From positions 1 to 64,000 of the forward strand of contig NZ_FOFV01000016.1 of the NCBI RefSeq assembly GCF_900111005.1: a stretch of 64,000 nucleotides of DNA, in the 5' to 3' direction. This document shows, one piece after another, positions 29,431-35,775 of this stretch. A model generated the notes under the pieces. That model made no database searches. It worked only from the letters and a program-made list of their open reading frames with translations, and was not told the DNA's origin. Position 1 is the stretch's first letter; the number at the start of each line of letters is the position of its first letter. The translations under genes were made by a program, and so were the position numbers. The DNA is from Lentzea albida (GTDB lineage Bacteria > Actinomycetota > Actinomycetes > Mycobacteriales > Pseudonocardiaceae).

Positions 29431-30774
29431 TCAGGGACCGGGGGAGACGAGGGCGTGGTCGTCAGGGGTAGCGGTGCTACCCCCGGTACAGCTCTCCACG
29501 CCGTTCTCGAGCAGCGGCAGCGGAGCCCCGACCAGCCCAGCCGCGAGCGTGGAACCGTCACTCGCGTCGATCACCAGAAACGACCCGGTGCGCCGGCTGA
29601 AGCTGTAGTCGTCCAGCGGTACGGGCTCTGCGAGACGCAGAGCAACTCGGCCGATCTCGTTGAGCTCCAGCGAGCTGGGACCGTCCACACTGGACAGCGT
29701 CTGCTCGTCGAAGCGGTCGCGCAGGTCGGTGACCATCGCCTGCACGGTGCGCGTTCCGTGCTTGACGAGGACTCGGGCACCGGCTCGCAGCGGCTTCTCC
29801 GCGAGCCAGCAGAGGGTGGCGTCCAGTTCGTCGGTGACCGTGGGCTCGTTGCCCGCCACCGAGATCAGGTCGCCGCGGGAGATGTCGATCTCGTCCGCCA
29901 GCAGCAGCGTGACGGACTGGCCGGCCGCCGCTTCGGCCAGTTCACCATCTGCCGTGTCGATCTTCGTCACCGTCGAGCGCCGCCCCGACGGCAGCACCAC
30001 GACCTCGTCACCGGGCTTGACCGTGCCGGCCGCGATGAGACCGGCGTAGCCCCGGTAGTCGAGGTGCTCGGCCGTGCGCGGGCGGATCACGTACTGCACC
30101 GGGAAGCGGAACGGGGCGTCGTGCGGGTCGGGCTCGACCGGCACGTTCTCCAGGTGCTCCAGCAGGGTGGGGCCGGAGTACCAGGGCGTGTTCGCCGACT
30201 TCTCCACGACGTTGTCACCGGCCAGCGCCGACACCGGGATCTCGACGACCGAGTCCTCGGTGTAGCCCAGTGCGGTGGCGTGTGCGGTGAACTCCTTGGC
30301 GATGCGGGAGAACGTCACCTCGTCGTAGTCCACGAGGTCGATCTTGTTGACCGCCAGGACGAGCCGCGGCACGCCGAGCAGCGCGAGAACCGCCGCGTGG
30401 CGCCGGGTCTGCTCGATGACGCCCTTGCGCGCGTCGACCAGCAGGACCGCGAGCTGCGCGGTGGACGCGCCCGTGACGGTGTTGCGCGTGTACTGCACGT
30501 GGCCCGGGGTGTCGGCGAGCACGAACGACCGCTTCGGCGTCGCGAAGTACCGGTACGCCACGTCGATCGTGATGCCCTGCTCGCGTTCCGAACGCAGGCC
30601 GTCGACCAGCAACGACAGGTCCGGGGTCGCGAGGCCGCGGTCGGCGCTCGCGCGGTGCACGGCGTCGAGGGTGTCCGCGAGAACGGACTTGGTGTCGTAG
30701 AGCAACCTGCCGACGAGCGTGGACTTCCCATCGTCCACGCTGCCCGCGGTGGCCAGCCTCAACAGGTCGCTCAT
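29431..30774 (-). CDS. cysN: Sulfate adenylyltransferase, GTPase subunit (CysN)
   Basis: A 447-residue EF-Tu-like GTPase that, with CysD, makes APS from sulfate and ATP. G1 TAGSVDDGKSTLVGRLL (~residue 8), effector region EREQGITIDVAYRYF, G3 ADTPGHVQYTRN, G4 AVNKIDLVDYD, followed by two beta-barrel domains. There is no C-terminal APS-kinase extension, consistent with the APS reductase route through CysH. It abuts cysD directly. Confidence 0.96.
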   Translation of the reverse strand: MSDLLRLATAGSVDDGKSTLVGRLLYDTKSVLADTLDAVHRASADRGLATPDLSLLVDGLRSEREQGITIDVAYRYFATPKRSFVLADTPGHVQYTRNTVTGASTAQLAVLLVDARKGVIEQTRRHAAVLALLGVPRLVLAVNKIDLVDYDEVTFSRIAKEFTAHATALGYTEDSVVEIPVSALAGDNVVEKSANTPWYSGPTLLEHLENVPVEPDPHDAPFRFPVQYVIRPRTAEHLDYRGYAGLIAAGTVKPGDEVVVLPSGRRSTVTKIDTADGELAEAAAGQSVTLLLADEIDISRGDLISVAGNEPTVTDELDATLCWLAEKPLRAGARVLVKHGTRTVQAMVTDLRDRFDEQTLSSVDGPSSLELNEIGRVALRLAEPVPLDDYSFSRRTGSFLVIDASDGSTLAAGLVGAPLPLLENGVESCTGGSTATPDDHALVSPGP

Positions 30775-31677
30775 TTAGAAGTAGCCCTCCCGCTTGCGGT
30801 CTTCCATGGCGGCCTCGGACAGCCGGTCGTCGGCCCGCGTGGCGCCGCGCTCGGTCAGCCGGGACGCGGCGACCTCGGCGATCACCGCGTGGATGTCGGC
30901 GGCGTCGGACTCGACGGCGCCCGTGCAGGACCCGTCACCGACCGTGCGGTAGCGAACCACCTTGCGCTGCAACGTTTCGCCGTCGCGCGCCTTGCCCCAC
31001 GGACCCTCCGCGAGCCACATGCCGTCGCGCAGGAACACCTCGCGCTCGTGCGAGTAGTAGATGTCCGGCAGCTCGATGCCCTCGCGCTCGATGTAGTTCC
31101 ACACGTCGAGTTCGGTCCAGTTGGACAGCGGGAACACGCGGACGTGCTCACCGGCGCGGTGCCGGCCGTTGTAGAGGTTCCACAGCTCCGGGCGCTGGCG
31201 CTTCGGGTCCCACTGGCCGAACGCCGTGCGCAGGCTGAAGATCCGCTCCTTGGCGCGGGCGCGTTCCTCGTCCCGGCGGCCACCGCCGAAGACCGCGTCG
31301 AACTTGTGCTGCGTGATGGAGTCCAGCAGCGGCACGGTCTGCAACGGGTTGCGCGTGCCGTCCGGGCGCTCTTCGAGGCGGCCGTCGTCGATCCAGTCCT
31401 GGACCTTCGCGACCTCGAGGCGCAGCCCGTGCTGCGCGACGACGCGGTCGCGGAACTCGATGACCTCGTCGAAGTTGTGCCCGGTGTCGACGTGCAGCAA
31501 CGGGAACGGCACCGGAGCCGGGTAGAACGCCTTGATCGCGAGGTGCAGCAGCAGCGTCGAGTCCTTGCCGCCGGAGAAGAGGATCACCGGCCGGTCGAAC
31601 TCGCCCGCGACCTCGCGGAAGATGTGGATCGCCTCCGATTCGAGGCGTCCCAGGGTGTCGAGCGTGGCTGTGGTCAT
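30775..31677 (-). CDS. cysD: Sulfate adenylyltransferase, catalytic subunit (CysD)
   Basis: A 300-residue PP-loop enzyme. The SGGKDS motif (FSGGKDSTLLLHLAIKAFYP) binds ATP; DTGHNFDEVIEFRD and RRDEERARAKERIFS are CysD signatures. With CysN it activates sulfate to adenosine 5'-phosphosulfate. ATG 31677 overlaps the cysH stop (ATGA). Upstream in-frame sequence is not conserved. Confidence 0.96.
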   Translation of the reverse strand: MTTATLDTLGRLESEAIHIFREVAGEFDRPVILFSGGKDSTLLLHLAIKAFYPAPVPFPLLHVDTGHNFDEVIEFRDRVVAQHGLRLEVAKVQDWIDDGRLEERPDGTRNPLQTVPLLDSITQHKFDAVFGGGRRDEERARAKERIFSLRTAFGQWDPKRQRPELWNLYNGRHRAGEHVRVFPLSNWTELDVWNYIEREGIELPDIYYSHEREVFLRDGMWLAEGPWGKARDGETLQRKVVRYRTVGDGSCTGAVESDAADIHAVIAEVAASRLTERGATRADDRLSEAAMEDRKREGYF

Positions 31678-32369
31678 CCGTGCAACCCGCATTCCGTCTT
31701 CGACTGACCGGCCCAGCGACCGCTGCGCGCGTCCTGGCCCGGCAGTGGCTTCGAGGTGCAGGGCAGGCAGCCGATGGAGGGATAACCCTCCTGCACCAAC
31801 AGGTTCTCGAGGATGCCCTTCTCGTGGATGTAGGCGTTGAACTCGTCGTCCGACCACGGCGCGATCGGGTTGATCTTCACCAGGCCGTTGCGGTCGTCCC
31901 ACTGCACGATCGGCGTGTTCGCCCTGGTCGGGGCGTCCACGCGGCGCACACCGGTGACCCACGCGTCGTACTTCGCGAGCTCGCGGCGCAGCGGCACGAC
32001 CTTGCGCAGGTTGCAGCACGTGGCCGGGTCCGACTGGTAGAGCAGGCCGAACTCGCGTTCCTGGTCCTCGACCGACTGCTCGGCCGCGGCGTTCACGATG
32101 CGCACCCCGGGGTAGACGACCCCGACGGCATCACGCACGCCGATCGTCTCCGGGAAGTGGTACCCCGTCTCCAGGAACAGCACGTCGAAGTCCGGCTTCA
32201 CCTTCGCGGCGAGGTCGATCAGCACGGCGTCCTGCATGTTGGAGGCGACGATGTAGCTGTCGCCGAACGTCCGCGCGACCCACTCCAGCGCCTCGATCGC
32301 GCCGGCGTCCTTCAACTCCTGCTCGGCGGCCTCGGCGACGATCTTGAGGTCTTCCTTGAGATCGCTCAC
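31674..32369 (-). CDS. cysH: APS reductase, [4Fe-4S] type (CysH)
   Basis: A 231-residue PP-loop reductase that converts APS to sulfite and AMP using thioredoxin. The iron-sulfur Cys pairs are present, CC in ATCCNLRKV and CxxC in GCLPCTSKPL, so it is the APS (not PAPS) type. The C-terminal ECGLHG carries the catalytic Cys. GTG 32369 overlaps the zinc-ribbon stop. The partner cysDN lacks APS kinase, which agrees. Confidence 0.95.
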   Translation of the reverse strand: MSDLKEDLKIVAEAAEQELKDAGAIEALEWVARTFGDSYIVASNMQDAVLIDLAAKVKPDFDVLFLETGYHFPETIGVRDAVGVVYPGVRIVNAAAEQSVEDQEREFGLLYQSDPATCCNLRKVVPLRRELAKYDAWVTGVRRVDAPTRANTPIVQWDDRNGLVKINPIAPWSDDEFNAYIHEKGILENLLVQEGYPSIGCLPCTSKPLPGQDARSGRWAGQSKTECGLHG

Positions 32370-32524
32370 TTCTTCACCTCCTGCGGCAGGTTGAGCCCGA
32401 CGAACGAGACCTTGAAGACGCGGCGGCACCCGGTGCACAGCCACGCGTAGCTCGGCTCCTCCTGCGGGCGGAGGTCCTCGTCGCCGCAGTAGGGGCAGTA
32501 GAACGGCGTCGCGCGTTCGCTCAT
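32366..32524 (-). CDS. Small zinc-ribbon protein in the sulfur operon
   Basis: A 52-residue protein with two CxxC knuckles (YCPYCGDE near residue 9, LCTGCRRVF near residue 29), predicted to bind one Zn or Fe. It overlaps both neighbours by 4 bases (ATGA), so translation is coupled between sulfite reductase and APS reductase. A homologue-like small gene is often found at this place in actinobacteria. It may help electron delivery or act as a regulator; function is unknown. Confidence 0.8.
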   Translation of the reverse strand: MSERATPFYCPYCGDEDLRPQEEPSYAWLCTGCRRVFKVSFVGLNLPQEVKK

Positions 32525-34200
32525 CGCAGCGAGCCCTCCTCGGCGCGGGCGACCCACTGAGCGAACCGCTCGTCGGTCTCGCGCTGCGCCACGAAGTTCC
32601 GCACCACGCGCTCGACGTACTCGGGCAGTTCGGCCGCGGTGACCTTGTGGCCGCGCAGCTTCCGGCCGAAGCCCGCGTCGAGGCCGAGGCCGCCGCCGAG
32701 GTGGACCTGGAAGCCCTCGACCTGGTTGCCGCTCGCGTCCGTGACGATCTGGCCCTTGAGCCCGATGTCCGCGGTCTGGATGCGGGCGCAGGAGTTGGGG
32801 CAGCCGTTGATGTGCACGGTGATCGGCGCCGTGACGCCGTCGACGACGTCCTTGAGGTTGGCTTCGAGCTGCGTGACGAGGTCCTGTGCGCGGGCCTTGG
32901 TCTCGACGATCGCGAGCTTGCAGAACTCGATGCCGGTGCAGGCCATGATCCCGCGGCGCCACGGCGACGGGTCGACCTGCAGGCCCAGCTTCGCGAGGTC
33001 GCTCTTGAGGGTCGGGACCTCGGCCTCGGGCACGTCCAGCACGATGATCTTCTGCTGGGGCGTGAAGCGGACGCGGTTCGACCCGGCCCGTTCCGCGAAC
33101 TTCGCGACCTCGACGAGGATCGAGCCCGACACGCGGCCCGCGATCGGCGCGGCGCCGACGTAGAACAGGCCGTCCTTCTGCCTGTTCACGCCGATGTGGT
33201 CGAGCGGCCGGTCGAGCTGCTCGGGCGCGGGGCCGTCGATCATCTTGCGCTTGAGGTACTCGTCCTCGACGACCTGGCGGAACTTCTCCGGGCCCCAGTC
33301 GGCGACGAGGAACTTGATGCGCGCGCGGTGGCGCAGGCGGCGGTAGCCGTAGTCGCGGAAGACGGAGATGACCGCCTCCCAGACGTCCGGGACCTCGTCG
33401 AGCGGCACCCAGGCGCCCAACCGCTTGCCCAGCATGGGGTTCGTGGACAGGCCGCCACCGACCCAGAGGTCGAAGCCCGGCCCGTGCTCGGGGTGGTTCA
33501 CGCCGACGAACGCGATGTCGTGGATCTCGTGCGCGACGTCCTGCAGACCGGAGATGGCGGTCTTGAACTTGCGCGGCAGGTTGGAGAAGCGCGGGTCACC
33601 GATGTAGCGCTCGAGGATCGTGTCGATGGCCGGCTGACCGTTGATGACCTCGTCCTCGGAGATGCCCGCGACCGGCGAGCCGAGGATGACGCGCGGGCTG
33701 TCGCCGCACGCCTCCATCGTCGTGAGGCCGACGGCTTCGAGCTTCTGCCAGATCGTGGGGACGTCCTCGACGCGGATCCAGTGGTACTGGATGTTCTGCC
33801 GGTCGGTGATGTCCGCGGTGTCGCGCGCGTAGGTCTGCGAGATCTCGCCGAGGACCGTGAGCTGCTCCGTGGTGAGCGCGCCGCCGTCGCTGCGCACGCG
33901 CATCATGAAGAACTCGTCGTCCAGCTCCTCCGGCTCCAGCGTGGCCGTGCGGCCGCCGTCGATGCCGGGCTTGCGCTGCGTGTAGAGGCCGTACCAGCGG
34001 AAACGTCCGCGCAGGTCGGCCGGGTCGATCGAGTCGAAACCGCCGTGGGCGTAGATGTTCTCGATGCGGGCGCGGACGTTGAGCGGGTTGTCGTCCTTCT
34101 TGCTCCGCTCGTTGGGGTTCAGCGGCTCTCGGTACCCGAGTGCCCACTGCCCCTCGCCGCGACGCTGCTTGGCGCGCGGTGACGTCTGCGGCGTGGCCAT
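32521..34200 (-). CDS. sir: Ferredoxin-type sulfite reductase (siroheme, NirA/Sir)
   Basis: A 559-residue enzyme that reduces sulfite to sulfide by six electrons. Two NiR/SiR half-domains; the [4Fe-4S]-siroheme Cys are in ACTGIEFCKLAIVE and NGCPNSCARIQ. Nitrite reduction is possible in this family, but cysH/D/N and chelatase neighbours point to sulfite. Of two in-frame ATGs (34206, 34200) the second is chosen because GGAGG ends directly at the first. That Shine-Dalgarno lies in a hairpin, and a leader peptide precedes the gene, so expression is probably attenuated by sulfur status. Confidence 0.94.
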   Translation of the reverse strand: MATPQTSPRAKQRRGEGQWALGYREPLNPNERSKKDDNPLNVRARIENIYAHGGFDSIDPADLRGRFRWYGLYTQRKPGIDGGRTATLEPEELDDEFFMMRVRSDGGALTTEQLTVLGEISQTYARDTADITDRQNIQYHWIRVEDVPTIWQKLEAVGLTTMEACGDSPRVILGSPVAGISEDEVINGQPAIDTILERYIGDPRFSNLPRKFKTAISGLQDVAHEIHDIAFVGVNHPEHGPGFDLWVGGGLSTNPMLGKRLGAWVPLDEVPDVWEAVISVFRDYGYRRLRHRARIKFLVADWGPEKFRQVVEDEYLKRKMIDGPAPEQLDRPLDHIGVNRQKDGLFYVGAAPIAGRVSGSILVEVAKFAERAGSNRVRFTPQQKIIVLDVPEAEVPTLKSDLAKLGLQVDPSPWRRGIMACTGIEFCKLAIVETKARAQDLVTQLEANLKDVVDGVTAPITVHINGCPNSCARIQTADIGLKGQIVTDASGNQVEGFQVHLGGGLGLDAGFGRKLRGHKVTAAELPEYVERVVRNFVAQRETDERFAQWVARAEEGSLR

Positions 34201-34206
34201 CGCCAT

Positions 34207-34250
34207 CCTCCGGGGTTTCGAGGCGCTCGGTGCGCGTGCGAGCCCGGAGG
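34207..34250 (-). promoter_or_regulatory. RBS-sequestering hairpin before sulfite reductase
   Basis: On the minus strand CCTCCGGG (34250-34243) is perfectly complementary to CCCGGAGG (34214-34207), which holds the sulfite reductase Shine-Dalgarno GGAGG. The loop is 28 bases. An upstream GCCCGG (34284-34279) could pair instead with CCGGGC (34247-34242), freeing the ribosome site. This is the geometry of a translational attenuator. Confidence 0.65.
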
Positions 34251-34310
34251 TGCTTGTGGTGGGGGCGTCGTCAGCGCGCCGGGCGCCGACGGGAACAAAT
34301 CAGCGCGCGG

Positions 34311-34397
34311 TCATGCCGAACGACGGCACATCGCGCTGGAGACACGACGGAAGTCGACGTGGCGGCGGGCCACGAGGCGGACTCCAGTCGAATGCAT
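34311..34397 (-). CDS. Sulfur-operon leader peptide (28 aa)
   Basis: A 28-codon frame starting MHSTGVRLVARRH and ending VDFRRVSSAMCRRSA. It matches the actinobacterial leader-peptide pattern RxHxDxxRVxSAxC that I know from upstream of sulfur and cysteine genes. A Cys codon sits four codons before the stop, so ribosome pausing there could report Cys-tRNA supply. It ends 110 bases before the sulfite reductase start; an RBS-masking hairpin lies between. GAGG is only two bases from the ATG, and a -10-like box ends six bases before it, so it may be leaderless. Confidence 0.78.
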   Translation of the reverse strand: MHSTGVRLVARRHVDFRRVSSAMCRRSA

Positions 34398-34403
34398 GAC
34401 CTC

Positions 34404-34432
34404 AGTGTGCCTGCCGTCCAGAGCGTGGTCCA
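34404..34432 (-). promoter_or_regulatory. Putative promoter of the sulfur operon
   Basis: On the minus strand TGGACC (34432-34427) and CACACT (34409-34404) are spaced by 17 bases. Transcription would begin near 34397, the A of the leader-peptide ATG. The boxes match the consensus only moderately, so this rests mainly on position. Confidence 0.35.
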
Positions 34433-34500
34433 CCGCCAACCGAATGCTGAGATTGACGAGGAGGAGTTGACATCCTAGGCTGGTTTCACTCCGTAGTATT

Positions 34501-34515
34501 TCTGTCACCGACAGA
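34501..34515. promoter_or_regulatory. Inverted repeat in the hemW/sulfur-operon divergent promoter
   Basis: TCTGTC-ACC-GACAGA is a perfect 6-bp dyad with 3-base spacer, 52 bases before the hemW start. A TTGACA box (34467-34472) and TAGTAT (34494-34499) lie just upstream, though 21 bases apart. A regulator site for hemW or the sulfur operon is possible. The rest of 34251-34566 outside the leader region shows no gene. Confidence 0.4.
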
Positions 34516-34566
34516 TACATCCGCTGGCTGTGCACCGCCGATCGGGCTGTAGTGGACACTGGTGAC

Positions 34567-35775
34567 ATGCCCTCCGCACTGCCCGAAGGCGAGCCCGCGC
34601 CCGCCGACGGTTCGCTTCCCGCGTCTTCCCTCGCCGGTGTCGGCTCCCGCCCGTTCGGCGTCTACGTGCACGTGCCGTTCTGCGCGACCCGCTGCGGCTA
34701 CTGCGACTTCAACACCTACACGCCCGGCGAACTCGGCACCTCCGCCTCGCCCGAGTCGTGGCTGGAGGGCCTGCGCCGCGAACTGGACCTGGCCGCGTCC
34801 GTCCTCGGGACCGCACCGCCGGCCGAAACCGTGTTCGTGGGCGGCGGAACGCCCTCCCTGCTGGGCGCCTCGGGTCTGTCCGACGTGCTCGACGCCGTGC
34901 GCCGGTCGTTCGGCCTGGCCCCCGGCGCCGAGGTGACGACGGAGTCGAACCCGGAGTCGACGTCCCCGTCGTTCTTCGAGGGGATCCGTGCGGCGGGCTA
35001 CACGCGCGTGTCGCTGGGCATGCAGTCGGCCGCGCGGCACGTGCTGGCCGTGCTGGACCGCAAGCACACGCCCGGCCGTCCGGGAGAAGCCGCCCGCGAG
35101 GCCCGTGCGGCCGGCTTCGACCACGTGAACCTGGACCTGATCTACGGCACGCCGGGGGAGCGCCCCTCCGACCTGGCCGCGTCCCTGGACGCGGTGCTGG
35201 ACGCGGGCGTCGACCACGTGTCCGCCTACGCGCTGATCGTGGAGGACGGCACCGGCCTGGCCCGCCGCATCCGCCGCGGCGACCTGCCGATGCCCGACGA
35301 CGACGTGCTCGCCTCGTCGTACGAGATGGTCGACTCGGTTTTGAGCGGTGCCGGCTTCTCCTGGTACGAGGTGTCGAACTGGGCGACCTCCGCCGAAGCG
35401 CAGTGCCGCCACAACGTCCTGTACTGGCAGGGCGCCGACTGGTGGGGCTTCGGCCCCGGCGCGCACAGCCACGTCGGGGGCGTGCGCTTCTGGAACGTGA
35501 AGCACCCGGCCCGCTACTCGTCCCTGCTCGCCTCCGGCCAGTCGCCCGCGGCCGGTCGTGAGGTGCTGACCGCGGAGGACCAGCGCGTCGAGCGGGTGCT
35601 GCTGGAACTCCGGCTCGCGTCGGGGTTGCCGATGGACGTGCTCGACCCCGCCGGCCGCGACGAGGCCAAGCAGGCGATCGCCGACGGGCTGCTGGAGCCG
35701 TACGACGACCGCTGCGTGCTGACCGACCGGGGCCGCCTGCTGGCCGACGCCGTCGTGCGGCGCCTGCTGCCCTGA
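34567..35775 (+). CDS. hemW: Radical SAM heme chaperone HemW
   Basis: A 402-residue radical-SAM protein, formerly annotated as oxygen-independent coproporphyrinogen oxidase. The cluster motif CATRCGYC (Cys 39, 43, 46) and GGGTPSLL (SAM-binding) are intact, and the C-terminal HemN-like domain is present. HemW binds heme and delivers it to respiratory enzymes. Its place upstream of hrcA-dnaJ is conserved in actinobacteria. ATG 34567 is chosen over an in-frame ATG five codons earlier. Confidence 0.93.
   Translation: MPSALPEGEPAPADGSLPASSLAGVGSRPFGVYVHVPFCATRCGYCDFNTYTPGELGTSASPESWLEGLRRELDLAASVLGTAPPAETVFVGGGTPSLLGASGLSDVLDAVRRSFGLAPGAEVTTESNPESTSPSFFEGIRAAGYTRVSLGMQSAARHVLAVLDRKHTPGRPGEAAREARAAGFDHVNLDLIYGTPGERPSDLAASLDAVLDAGVDHVSAYALIVEDGTGLARRIRRGDLPMPDDDVLASSYEMVDSVLSGAGFSWYEVSNWATSAEAQCRHNVLYWQGADWWGFGPGAHSHVGGVRFWNVKHPARYSSLLASGQSPAAGREVLTAEDQRVERVLLELRLASGLPMDVLDPAGRDEAKQAIADGLLEPYDDRCVLTDRGRLLADAVVRRLLP

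Follow-up and report, generated by a model that had tools for sequence, protein, structure and literature searches.

How might the ribosome binding site (RBS) of the sulfite reductase gene of Lentzea albida be placed under the control of cysteine supply by a 28-codon frame with one Cys codon? The window (the whole stretch of DNA that was analysed, positions 1 to 64,000 of contig NZ_FOFV01000016.1) carries this frame on the minus strand, and the initial annotation had read it as a probable cysteine-responsive translational attenuator. Judged by its sequence, it is a real and conserved cysteine leader-peptide attenuator. The reading that we favour, with a probability of about 0.68, is that it is a cysteine-responsive leader-peptide attenuator acting on a sulfite reductase-cysHDN operon, and that its homologues in mycobacteria are the leaderless polycysteine upstream open reading frames (uORFs).

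The locus, its promoter and related leaders

The leader frame extends from 34397 to 34311 on the minus strand, with its ATG at 34397-34395 and its stop codon at 34313-34311; 104 nucleotides (nt) separate it from the sulfite reductase gene, counted to the first ATG (34206). It has 28 codons (MHSTGVRLVARRHVDFRRVSSAMCRRSA), including a single Cys codon (TGC, 34328-34326) located 13 positions after the first Arg of an RRHVD core; this Arg is designated R0 below. The frame stays open further 5' (85 amino acids in all), and in several relatives (e.g. L029, L034, L036, L040, L122, and L191) an in-frame stop lies just 5' of the leader start; the conserved start is therefore placed at 34397.

The sulfite reductase (SiR) gene (32521..34206, minus strand) encodes NIR_SIR and NIR_SIR_ferr domains, and its product is 93-98% identical to that of five Lentzea loci. 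Its Shine-Dalgarno (SD) sequence, GGAGG (34211-34207), abuts the ATG at 34206 and has a spacing of 6 to a second ATG at 34200, so the second ATG is the likelier start. Further along the same strand, Pfam and NCBIfam matches identify a PAPS/APS reductase domain (31674-32444), CysD (within the frame 30775-32019), and CysN (29431-30774), in agreement with the sulfur genes that had been placed downstream of the leader. A divergent plus-strand ORF (34552-35775) has a translation that by eye resembles a HemN-type radical SAM coproporphyrinogen oxidase.

The leader had been suspected of having a leaderless promoter, and comparison with relatives strengthens this suspicion. The putative promoter (34404..34433, minus strand) comprises GTGGAC (34433-34428), an 18 nt spacer, and CACACT (34409-34404), followed by 6 nt and the leader ATG, and its layout resembles that seen in relatives. 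Of 177 distinct upstream regions, 175 have a hexamer of the form xAxxxT 6-7 nt 5' of an in-frame start codon (ATG or GTG), compared with 2.8 expected from shuffling, and 139 have CACnnT at the same spacing (0.25 expected). This spacing of a -10-like hexamer supports a probably leaderless leader transcript. No match to the sigma-70 consensus was found in the leader region with a simple scan, so it is from conservation that the promoter is proposed.

Two NCBIfam models align with the leader. NF042934 ("putative leader peptide", cis_reg_atten) gives 30.9 bits against a cut-off of 27 over positions 1-19 of 19; it is a sequence model that implies no mechanism. NF042936 (leader_Ms4527A, a Cys-rich leader) aligns at 20 of 21 positions, and the score of 30.9 bits is below the cut-off of 45, the Cys run being missing. 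The mycobacterial polycysteine leaderless ORFs have the same C-terminal Cys codon or codons before a sulfur operon and are leaderless, as the L. albida leader probably is, and the mycobacterial loci share an RRHVDFKRV core with SiR downstream; the L. albida leader differs from them in having one Cys codon and no run. A structure that sequesters the RBS is a feature of these mycobacterial leaders, and ribosomes stalled on them are said (Canestrari 2020) to block the structures in which the RBS of the downstream gene is hidden. Cys-rich leaderless uORFs have been proposed as attenuators in mycobacteria (Shell 2015, PMC4633059), and a review (PMC9031893), an eLife article (PMC9094748), and a paper from 2026 (PMC13236596) cite Canestrari 2020 for cysteine-dependent regulation, which PMC9031893 and PMC13236596 describe as translation attenuation. 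According to Seliverstov 2005 (PMC1262725), actinobacterial cys operons are preceded by leader peptides with Cys runs and with no conserved hairpin capable of termination; the L. albida type occupies the same place and has no terminator, and differs in its one Cys and its covarying helices. A reannotation of Streptomyces lividans (PMC8079986) gives eight leader peptides, none of them assigned to cysteine, and no description of the single-Cys form or its helices was found in the open-licence passages searched, those of PMC9386245 and PMC11133741 included.

Conservation of the leader peptide

The leader is present in 80 of 81 SiR loci (80 related loci of named organisms and L. albida itself). 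The first search pattern matched 75 of these; among the remaining six, an RLHVD variant is found in five, and the sixth (L070) is covered by only ~140 nt of upstream sequence. Further loci from the same family as L. albida gave 29/29 and 79/80, with L187 as the one miss; 19 of these 108 are identical to a locus of the named set from the core to the gene start. In 155 distinct SiR leaders, R0, D4, and R7 are found in 155 each and C13 in 154 (L217 has Gly), with synonymous variation at all four positions (5, 2, 3, and 2 codons, respectively). These counts arise partly by construction, as the search pattern required D4 and, in one form, R7 and the Cys, although the near-complete recovery of loci limits this bias; the five RLHVD loci are absent from the table of 155 (the pattern demands D4). 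With the match to NF042934, these results bear out the earlier view that the 28-codon frame is a leader peptide, and show it to be widely conserved among relatives. Strong amino-acid conservation would also be expected of a functional small protein that acts in trans, but the frame lies upstream of the operon in nearly all loci and has paralogs before other operons, as cis elements would, and we consider a trans-acting product highly improbable.

A single Cys is present in 110 of the 155 distinct leaders, and two to six Cys in the remaining 45; in the family of L. albida, 95 of 105 leaders have one Cys and the others have two. In mycobacterial loci the same core is followed by Cys runs in the position of the Cys, and the distance from core to Cys is constant in single-Cys leaders, in polycysteine leaders, and in the RLHVD variants. 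The initial annotation had suggested that a single Cys codon would be a distinct sensing style: this stands as a description of most of the leaders, but the core is common to the polycysteine leaders, so the difference looks like variation inside one family that NCBIfam already models. The variant core RLHVDLGR occurs in sulfite reductase leaders of Yinghuangia and Aeromicrobium (L066, L069, L079, L081, and L086).

Constraint is also seen at the level of codons. The Ser at core position 10 (34337-34335 in L. albida) is encoded by AGC or AGT in 147/147 leaders (105/105 in the family subset), whereas in the L016-L055 sulfite reductase genes these two codons account for 157 of 754 Ser codons. The Val two codons before the core (34373-34371 in L. 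albida) is encoded by GTG in 145 of 150. This codon usage points to a constraint at the RNA level. For the Cys, 66 of 154 leaders use TGT (18/105 in the family subset; L. albida itself has TGC). In the sulfite reductase genes themselves (L016-L055), TGT makes up 9 of 210 Cys codons, so the rarer Cys codon is over-used at the presumed stall site compared with these genes.

Classical attenuators require regulatory codons only. One explanation of the conserved core is nascent-chain arrest, which is compatible with translational attenuation: the HVDxxR core would act in the exit tunnel, so that one Cys codon stalls the ribosome or the ribosome senses cysteine itself. R0 and R7 are invariant despite their five and three codons, as is D4 (two codons, but demanded by the pattern), and the spacing between core and Cys is fixed in single-Cys, polycysteine, RLHVD, and other-operon leaders (40 of the last, among the matches listed). 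That the HVDxxR core is conserved, and its distance to the Cys fixed, suggests that the nascent chain helps the ribosome to stall. The core might instead serve RNA-level or initiation roles, however, and the constraint on the Ser10 codon acts on the nucleotide sequence as well; arrest is thus a possibility that we hold only tentatively.

Leaders of this type are not limited to the sulfite reductase operon. The L. albida genome contains three more of the same kind, one of which is above the NF042934 cut-off; they precede, respectively, a gene that we take to be DUF4395-like (NCBIfam gave no match) followed by a rhodanese-type sulfurtransferase, an SsuE-like FMN reductase (158.3 bits, below the cut-off of 164.05), and an OAH/OAS sulfhydrylase. 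Leader matches at E <= 0.01 occur in 114 of the 148 genomes of a class-wide sample, and in 93 of them a match exceeds the family cut-off; one genome has as many as 13, and 14 control genomes have none. When 40 of these class leaders, among the matches listed, were inspected by eye, the D and R of the core were found in 40/40 and the Cys in 39/40; the H can be replaced by A. Nine of the 40 downstream frames were scanned, and these encode luciferase-like monooxygenases (two), solute-binding proteins (three), and one each of a PLP-dependent cysteine synthase type, a cysteine dioxygenase, and a rhodanese, with one frame giving no match; several more of the 40 downstream genes, among the matches listed, are by eye sulfite reductases.

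Three observations on these class leaders are set apart here. At L246, a family leader (LWRRVHMDLVRYAGCVC, about 61-120) precedes the cysteine dioxygenase gene (217-816); this enzyme degrades cysteine, and so the L246 leader would need the opposite response. The leader of L250 (SRRHIDLLRVSSAISLV) has Ser in place of the expected Cys. RLHVDLCRL precedes genes of the cysteine synthase type in 3 of the 40 (L245 by scanning, L255 and L264 by eye).

It is conceivable that [H/A]-[V/I/M]-D-x-x-R-x5-C peptides form a family of arrest sensors throughout the Actinomycetes that act through the nascent chain: with the fixed core in the exit tunnel, one Cys codon would suffice to report on cysteine supply, the readout would be a competing-helix or pseudoknot switch over the SD, and the polycysteine leaders would be one specialised branch. 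We regard this wider proposal as speculative and rather unlikely to hold in full.

RNA structure between the leader and the gene

Structure was analysed in a set of 107 distinct family leaders with a gap of 95-145 nt, short-gap Amycolatopsis-type and long-gap leaders being excluded. The hairpin H1 (described below) could be anchored in 87 of the 107, of which 74 were retained. From the comparisons in general, L096 and L232, which are the L. albida locus itself, were removed, as were L224, L226, L233, and L234, in which the SiR anchor was not found; L043, which has a leader, is missing from the second extraction of leaders owing to a misplaced start anchor. Representatives were chosen at differing identity limits, giving 47, 28, 37, or 29 sequences depending on the test.

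The SD-sequestering helix (34207..34250, minus strand) is formed by an anti-SD arm, CCTCCGGG (34250-34243), that pairs perfectly with CCCGGAGG (34214-34207), the arm that includes the SD. In an unbiased map of 37 representatives across genera, this helix is the top of 855 window pairs (t -4.1), in a map that is noisy (mean 0.26, standard deviation 1.25, 3 pairs below -3 and 21 above +3). The duplex of the SD arm with a stretch whose centre lies 32 nt upstream of the SD end was stronger than in a control of partners re-dealt from distant relatives (t -4.0, 29 of 37 representatives). Away from this register the signal weakens step by step and is near zero at distances of 20 and 56 nt; the representatives in this test were less than 75% identical. 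The hairpin over the SD that the initial annotation had proposed is thus matched by covariation across genera, and the check that it had suggested, for conservation of the peptide and the stems in relatives, came out in its favour. As far as covariation can tell, the RBS of the sulfite reductase gene is sequestered by this RNA helix. The anti-SD arm lies further upstream in L. albida, a system known from sequence alone, than in the mycobacterial polycysteine systems.

Thermodynamic folding gives a less uniform picture. The fold of the intergenic region alone is unremarkable (z -1.15, 24 of 200 shuffles equally good), and the complete leader RNA folds with unusual stability (z -2.89, 1 of 200). 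Among 60 intergenic shuffles, the accessibility of the L. albida SD ranks at 0.02 when the leader is free and at 0.07 when a ribosome occupies the stop codon; in a shuffle test of 71 loci from several families, SD masking is barely above chance (mean rank 0.44). Of the 34 loci listed (a set without shuffle control), 7 have a local hairpin, GGCTCC-loop-GGAGCC, directly upstream of the gene, and four of these 7 are from named mycobacteria; RBS masking may thus be kept while the sequence changes.

H1 (2:3; 34269..34291, minus strand) is a hairpin of the form CGTCGGCGC-CCGGC-GCGCTGACG, located 19 nt past the leader stop. In 29 hand-picked, well-anchored segments it has 24 double-change cells compared with 10.5 in shuffles (0/500) and a covariation score of 0.307 compared with at most 0.141 in slid registers; by the number of pairs with double changes (5 vs 4.0) and of pair types (11 vs 11.0), it is no better than shuffles. 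Re-dealing of whole arms among 60 distinct, partly related segments matched the observed pairing in 0 of 2000 trials, and t was -3.3 on 28 representatives. In the Amycolatopsis-type leaders (L029, L034-L036, L129-L131, L136, L140-L142, and L154), the stop lies just 36 nt before the sulfite reductase start, leaving scant space for H1; these short-gap leaders would have either direct coupling or a different readout.

Two alternative pairings involve the arms of H1. In 1:2 (34283..34306, minus strand), the post-stop segment GCGCTGAT (34306-34299) pairs with the 5' arm of H1 (34290-34283). This pairing is present in minimum-energy folds and gives t -2.6 in the unbiased map and t -2.1 when anchored, which is suggestive only; a value of -6.1 from a column-based map of 47 representatives was discarded, as it fell to -2.1 to -2.6 with better anchoring. 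In 3:4 (34228..34281, minus strand), the loop and 3' arm of H1 (about 34281-34268) pair with 34241-34228, a segment within the SD hairpin loop. A stable 3:4 duplex is predicted in most of the 29 representatives listed, with a peak at its register (t -3.3), and overlapping windows of the unbiased map give t -3.3 and -2.7; with the second window left long, the pairing is not significant (t -0.8). Helix 3:4 is incompatible with H1 and, if folding is nested, with the SD helix as well.

Other pairings fared less well. The competing pairing that had been proposed originally, GCCCGG (34284-34279) with CCGGGC (34247-34242), is complementary as described, but it shows no covariation (t 0.0 and -1.1), and the H1 loop on which it depends is CGGGT in other genera instead of CCGGC. 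Pairing of leader codons with the 3' arm of H1 was rejected as the reason for the conserved AGC: a fraction of 0.44 of recodings paired better, where 0.5 means no preference. RNAalifold, run on a gapped MAFFT alignment, chose other pairings.

Helix 3:4 and the SD helix could also coexist as an H-type pseudoknot, which would reverse the logic of a switch. A related alternative is that H1, 3:4, and the SD helix together form a pseudoknot that binds a sulfur metabolite, i.e. a riboswitch to which the peptide is incidental. The arms of 3:4 and of the SD helix are adjacent in L. albida, as in an H-type pseudoknot, and the two are the best and second-best pairs of the map, the second window also overlapping the 5' arm of H1. 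We nevertheless consider a riboswitch very unlikely: Rfam gave no match to E 5 in 34000-34700, the peptide is conserved better than the RNA, and the seven loci with a local SD hairpin use a different sequence for it.

From the ribosome to the RBS

Translational attenuation is ranked first because the SD helix covaries. In the mechanism that we propose, transcription would start at or next to the leader ATG, as the conserved promoter spacing indicates, and a ribosome would read the nascent leader. By default, the SD of the sulfite reductase gene would be paired with the anti-SD arm, giving low translation. A shortage of Cys-tRNA would make the ribosome pause at the sole conserved Cys codon; under an assumed ribosome footprint, a ribosome paused there would leave the post-stop segment free, and one at the stop codon would cover it. 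Depending on whether this segment is free or covered, the choice would shift between H1 and the combination of 1:2 and 3:4, and 3:4, forming in the loop of the SD hairpin, would displace the anti-SD arm and open the RBS, a last step that folding of the L. albida leader does not reproduce. In translational attenuators of the erm type, stalling on a leader peptide swaps helices and frees the SD; the swap proposed here is similar, with the supply of Cys-tRNA instead of an antibiotic as the likely signal.

The predictions of this model were examined by folding with the ribosome represented as a block of assumed footprint, with the Cys or the stop codon in the A site. The earlier claim that a ribosome at the Cys codon opens the RBS was not reproduced, as the SD of L. 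albida stays closed in every folded state. The mean difference in SD exposure between Cys and stop is 0.001 over 71 loci of several families (above 0.2 in 3 and below -0.2 in 4) and 0.03 in 29 representatives (t 2.1; above 0.1 in 7 and below -0.1 in 0). In the same 29, SD exposure is 0.05 higher when the 5' arm of H1 is taken than when H1 is forced (10 up, 3 down), the SD helix averages 3.0 base pairs (bp) in the former state and 4.9 bp in the latter, and 3:4 climbs from 0.1 to 5.2 bp on taking the 5' arm. When these 29 were folded before the SD is included, 3:4 was dominant at any ribosome position and slightly weaker with the ribosome at Cys than with it at stop (mean change -0.75 bp, t -2.3; up in 0 and down in 6 of the 29), which is against the switch model and lowers our confidence in translational attenuation slightly. 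As no clean switch emerged from equilibrium or pre-SD folding with the ribosome mask, the link from ribosome to RBS is one that we infer.

The same stretch could be read out during transcription. No terminator-like sites (0) were found in 34150-34520, in contrast to what is expected of a classical transcription attenuator, and this lack of an intrinsic terminator in the leader fits Rho-dependent attenuation, in which the stretch between leader and gene would be a Rho loading site and the position of the leader ribosome would decide whether RNA polymerase stops. The stretch is C-rich and G-poor, with C exceeding G in 190 of 193 cases (mean C-G +0.117); in L016-L069, C-G is -0.018 upstream of the promoter (C > G in 17/51) and +0.028 at the gene start (45/51), although these comparisons are with the stretch's own flanks only and not with other 5' leaders of these genomes. 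Rho was proposed for mycobacterial cys leaders in Seliverstov 2005, where the prediction is itself called "rather weak" (PMC1262725). A covarying helix between anti-SD and SD would be needless in a purely transcriptional device, and we consider Rho-dependent attenuation unlikely compared with translational attenuation.

Translational attenuation at this locus would carry this type of cysteine control beyond the mycobacteria into another family, in which sequence evidence exists for the peptide as well as for the helix that masks the RBS. A puzzle comes with it: Cys codons should suffice for such a device, yet the HVDxxR core is conserved at a fixed distance from one Cys. An answer regarding the role of this core would bear on many sulfur operons, given the share of genomes in the class-wide sample that carry leaders of this kind.
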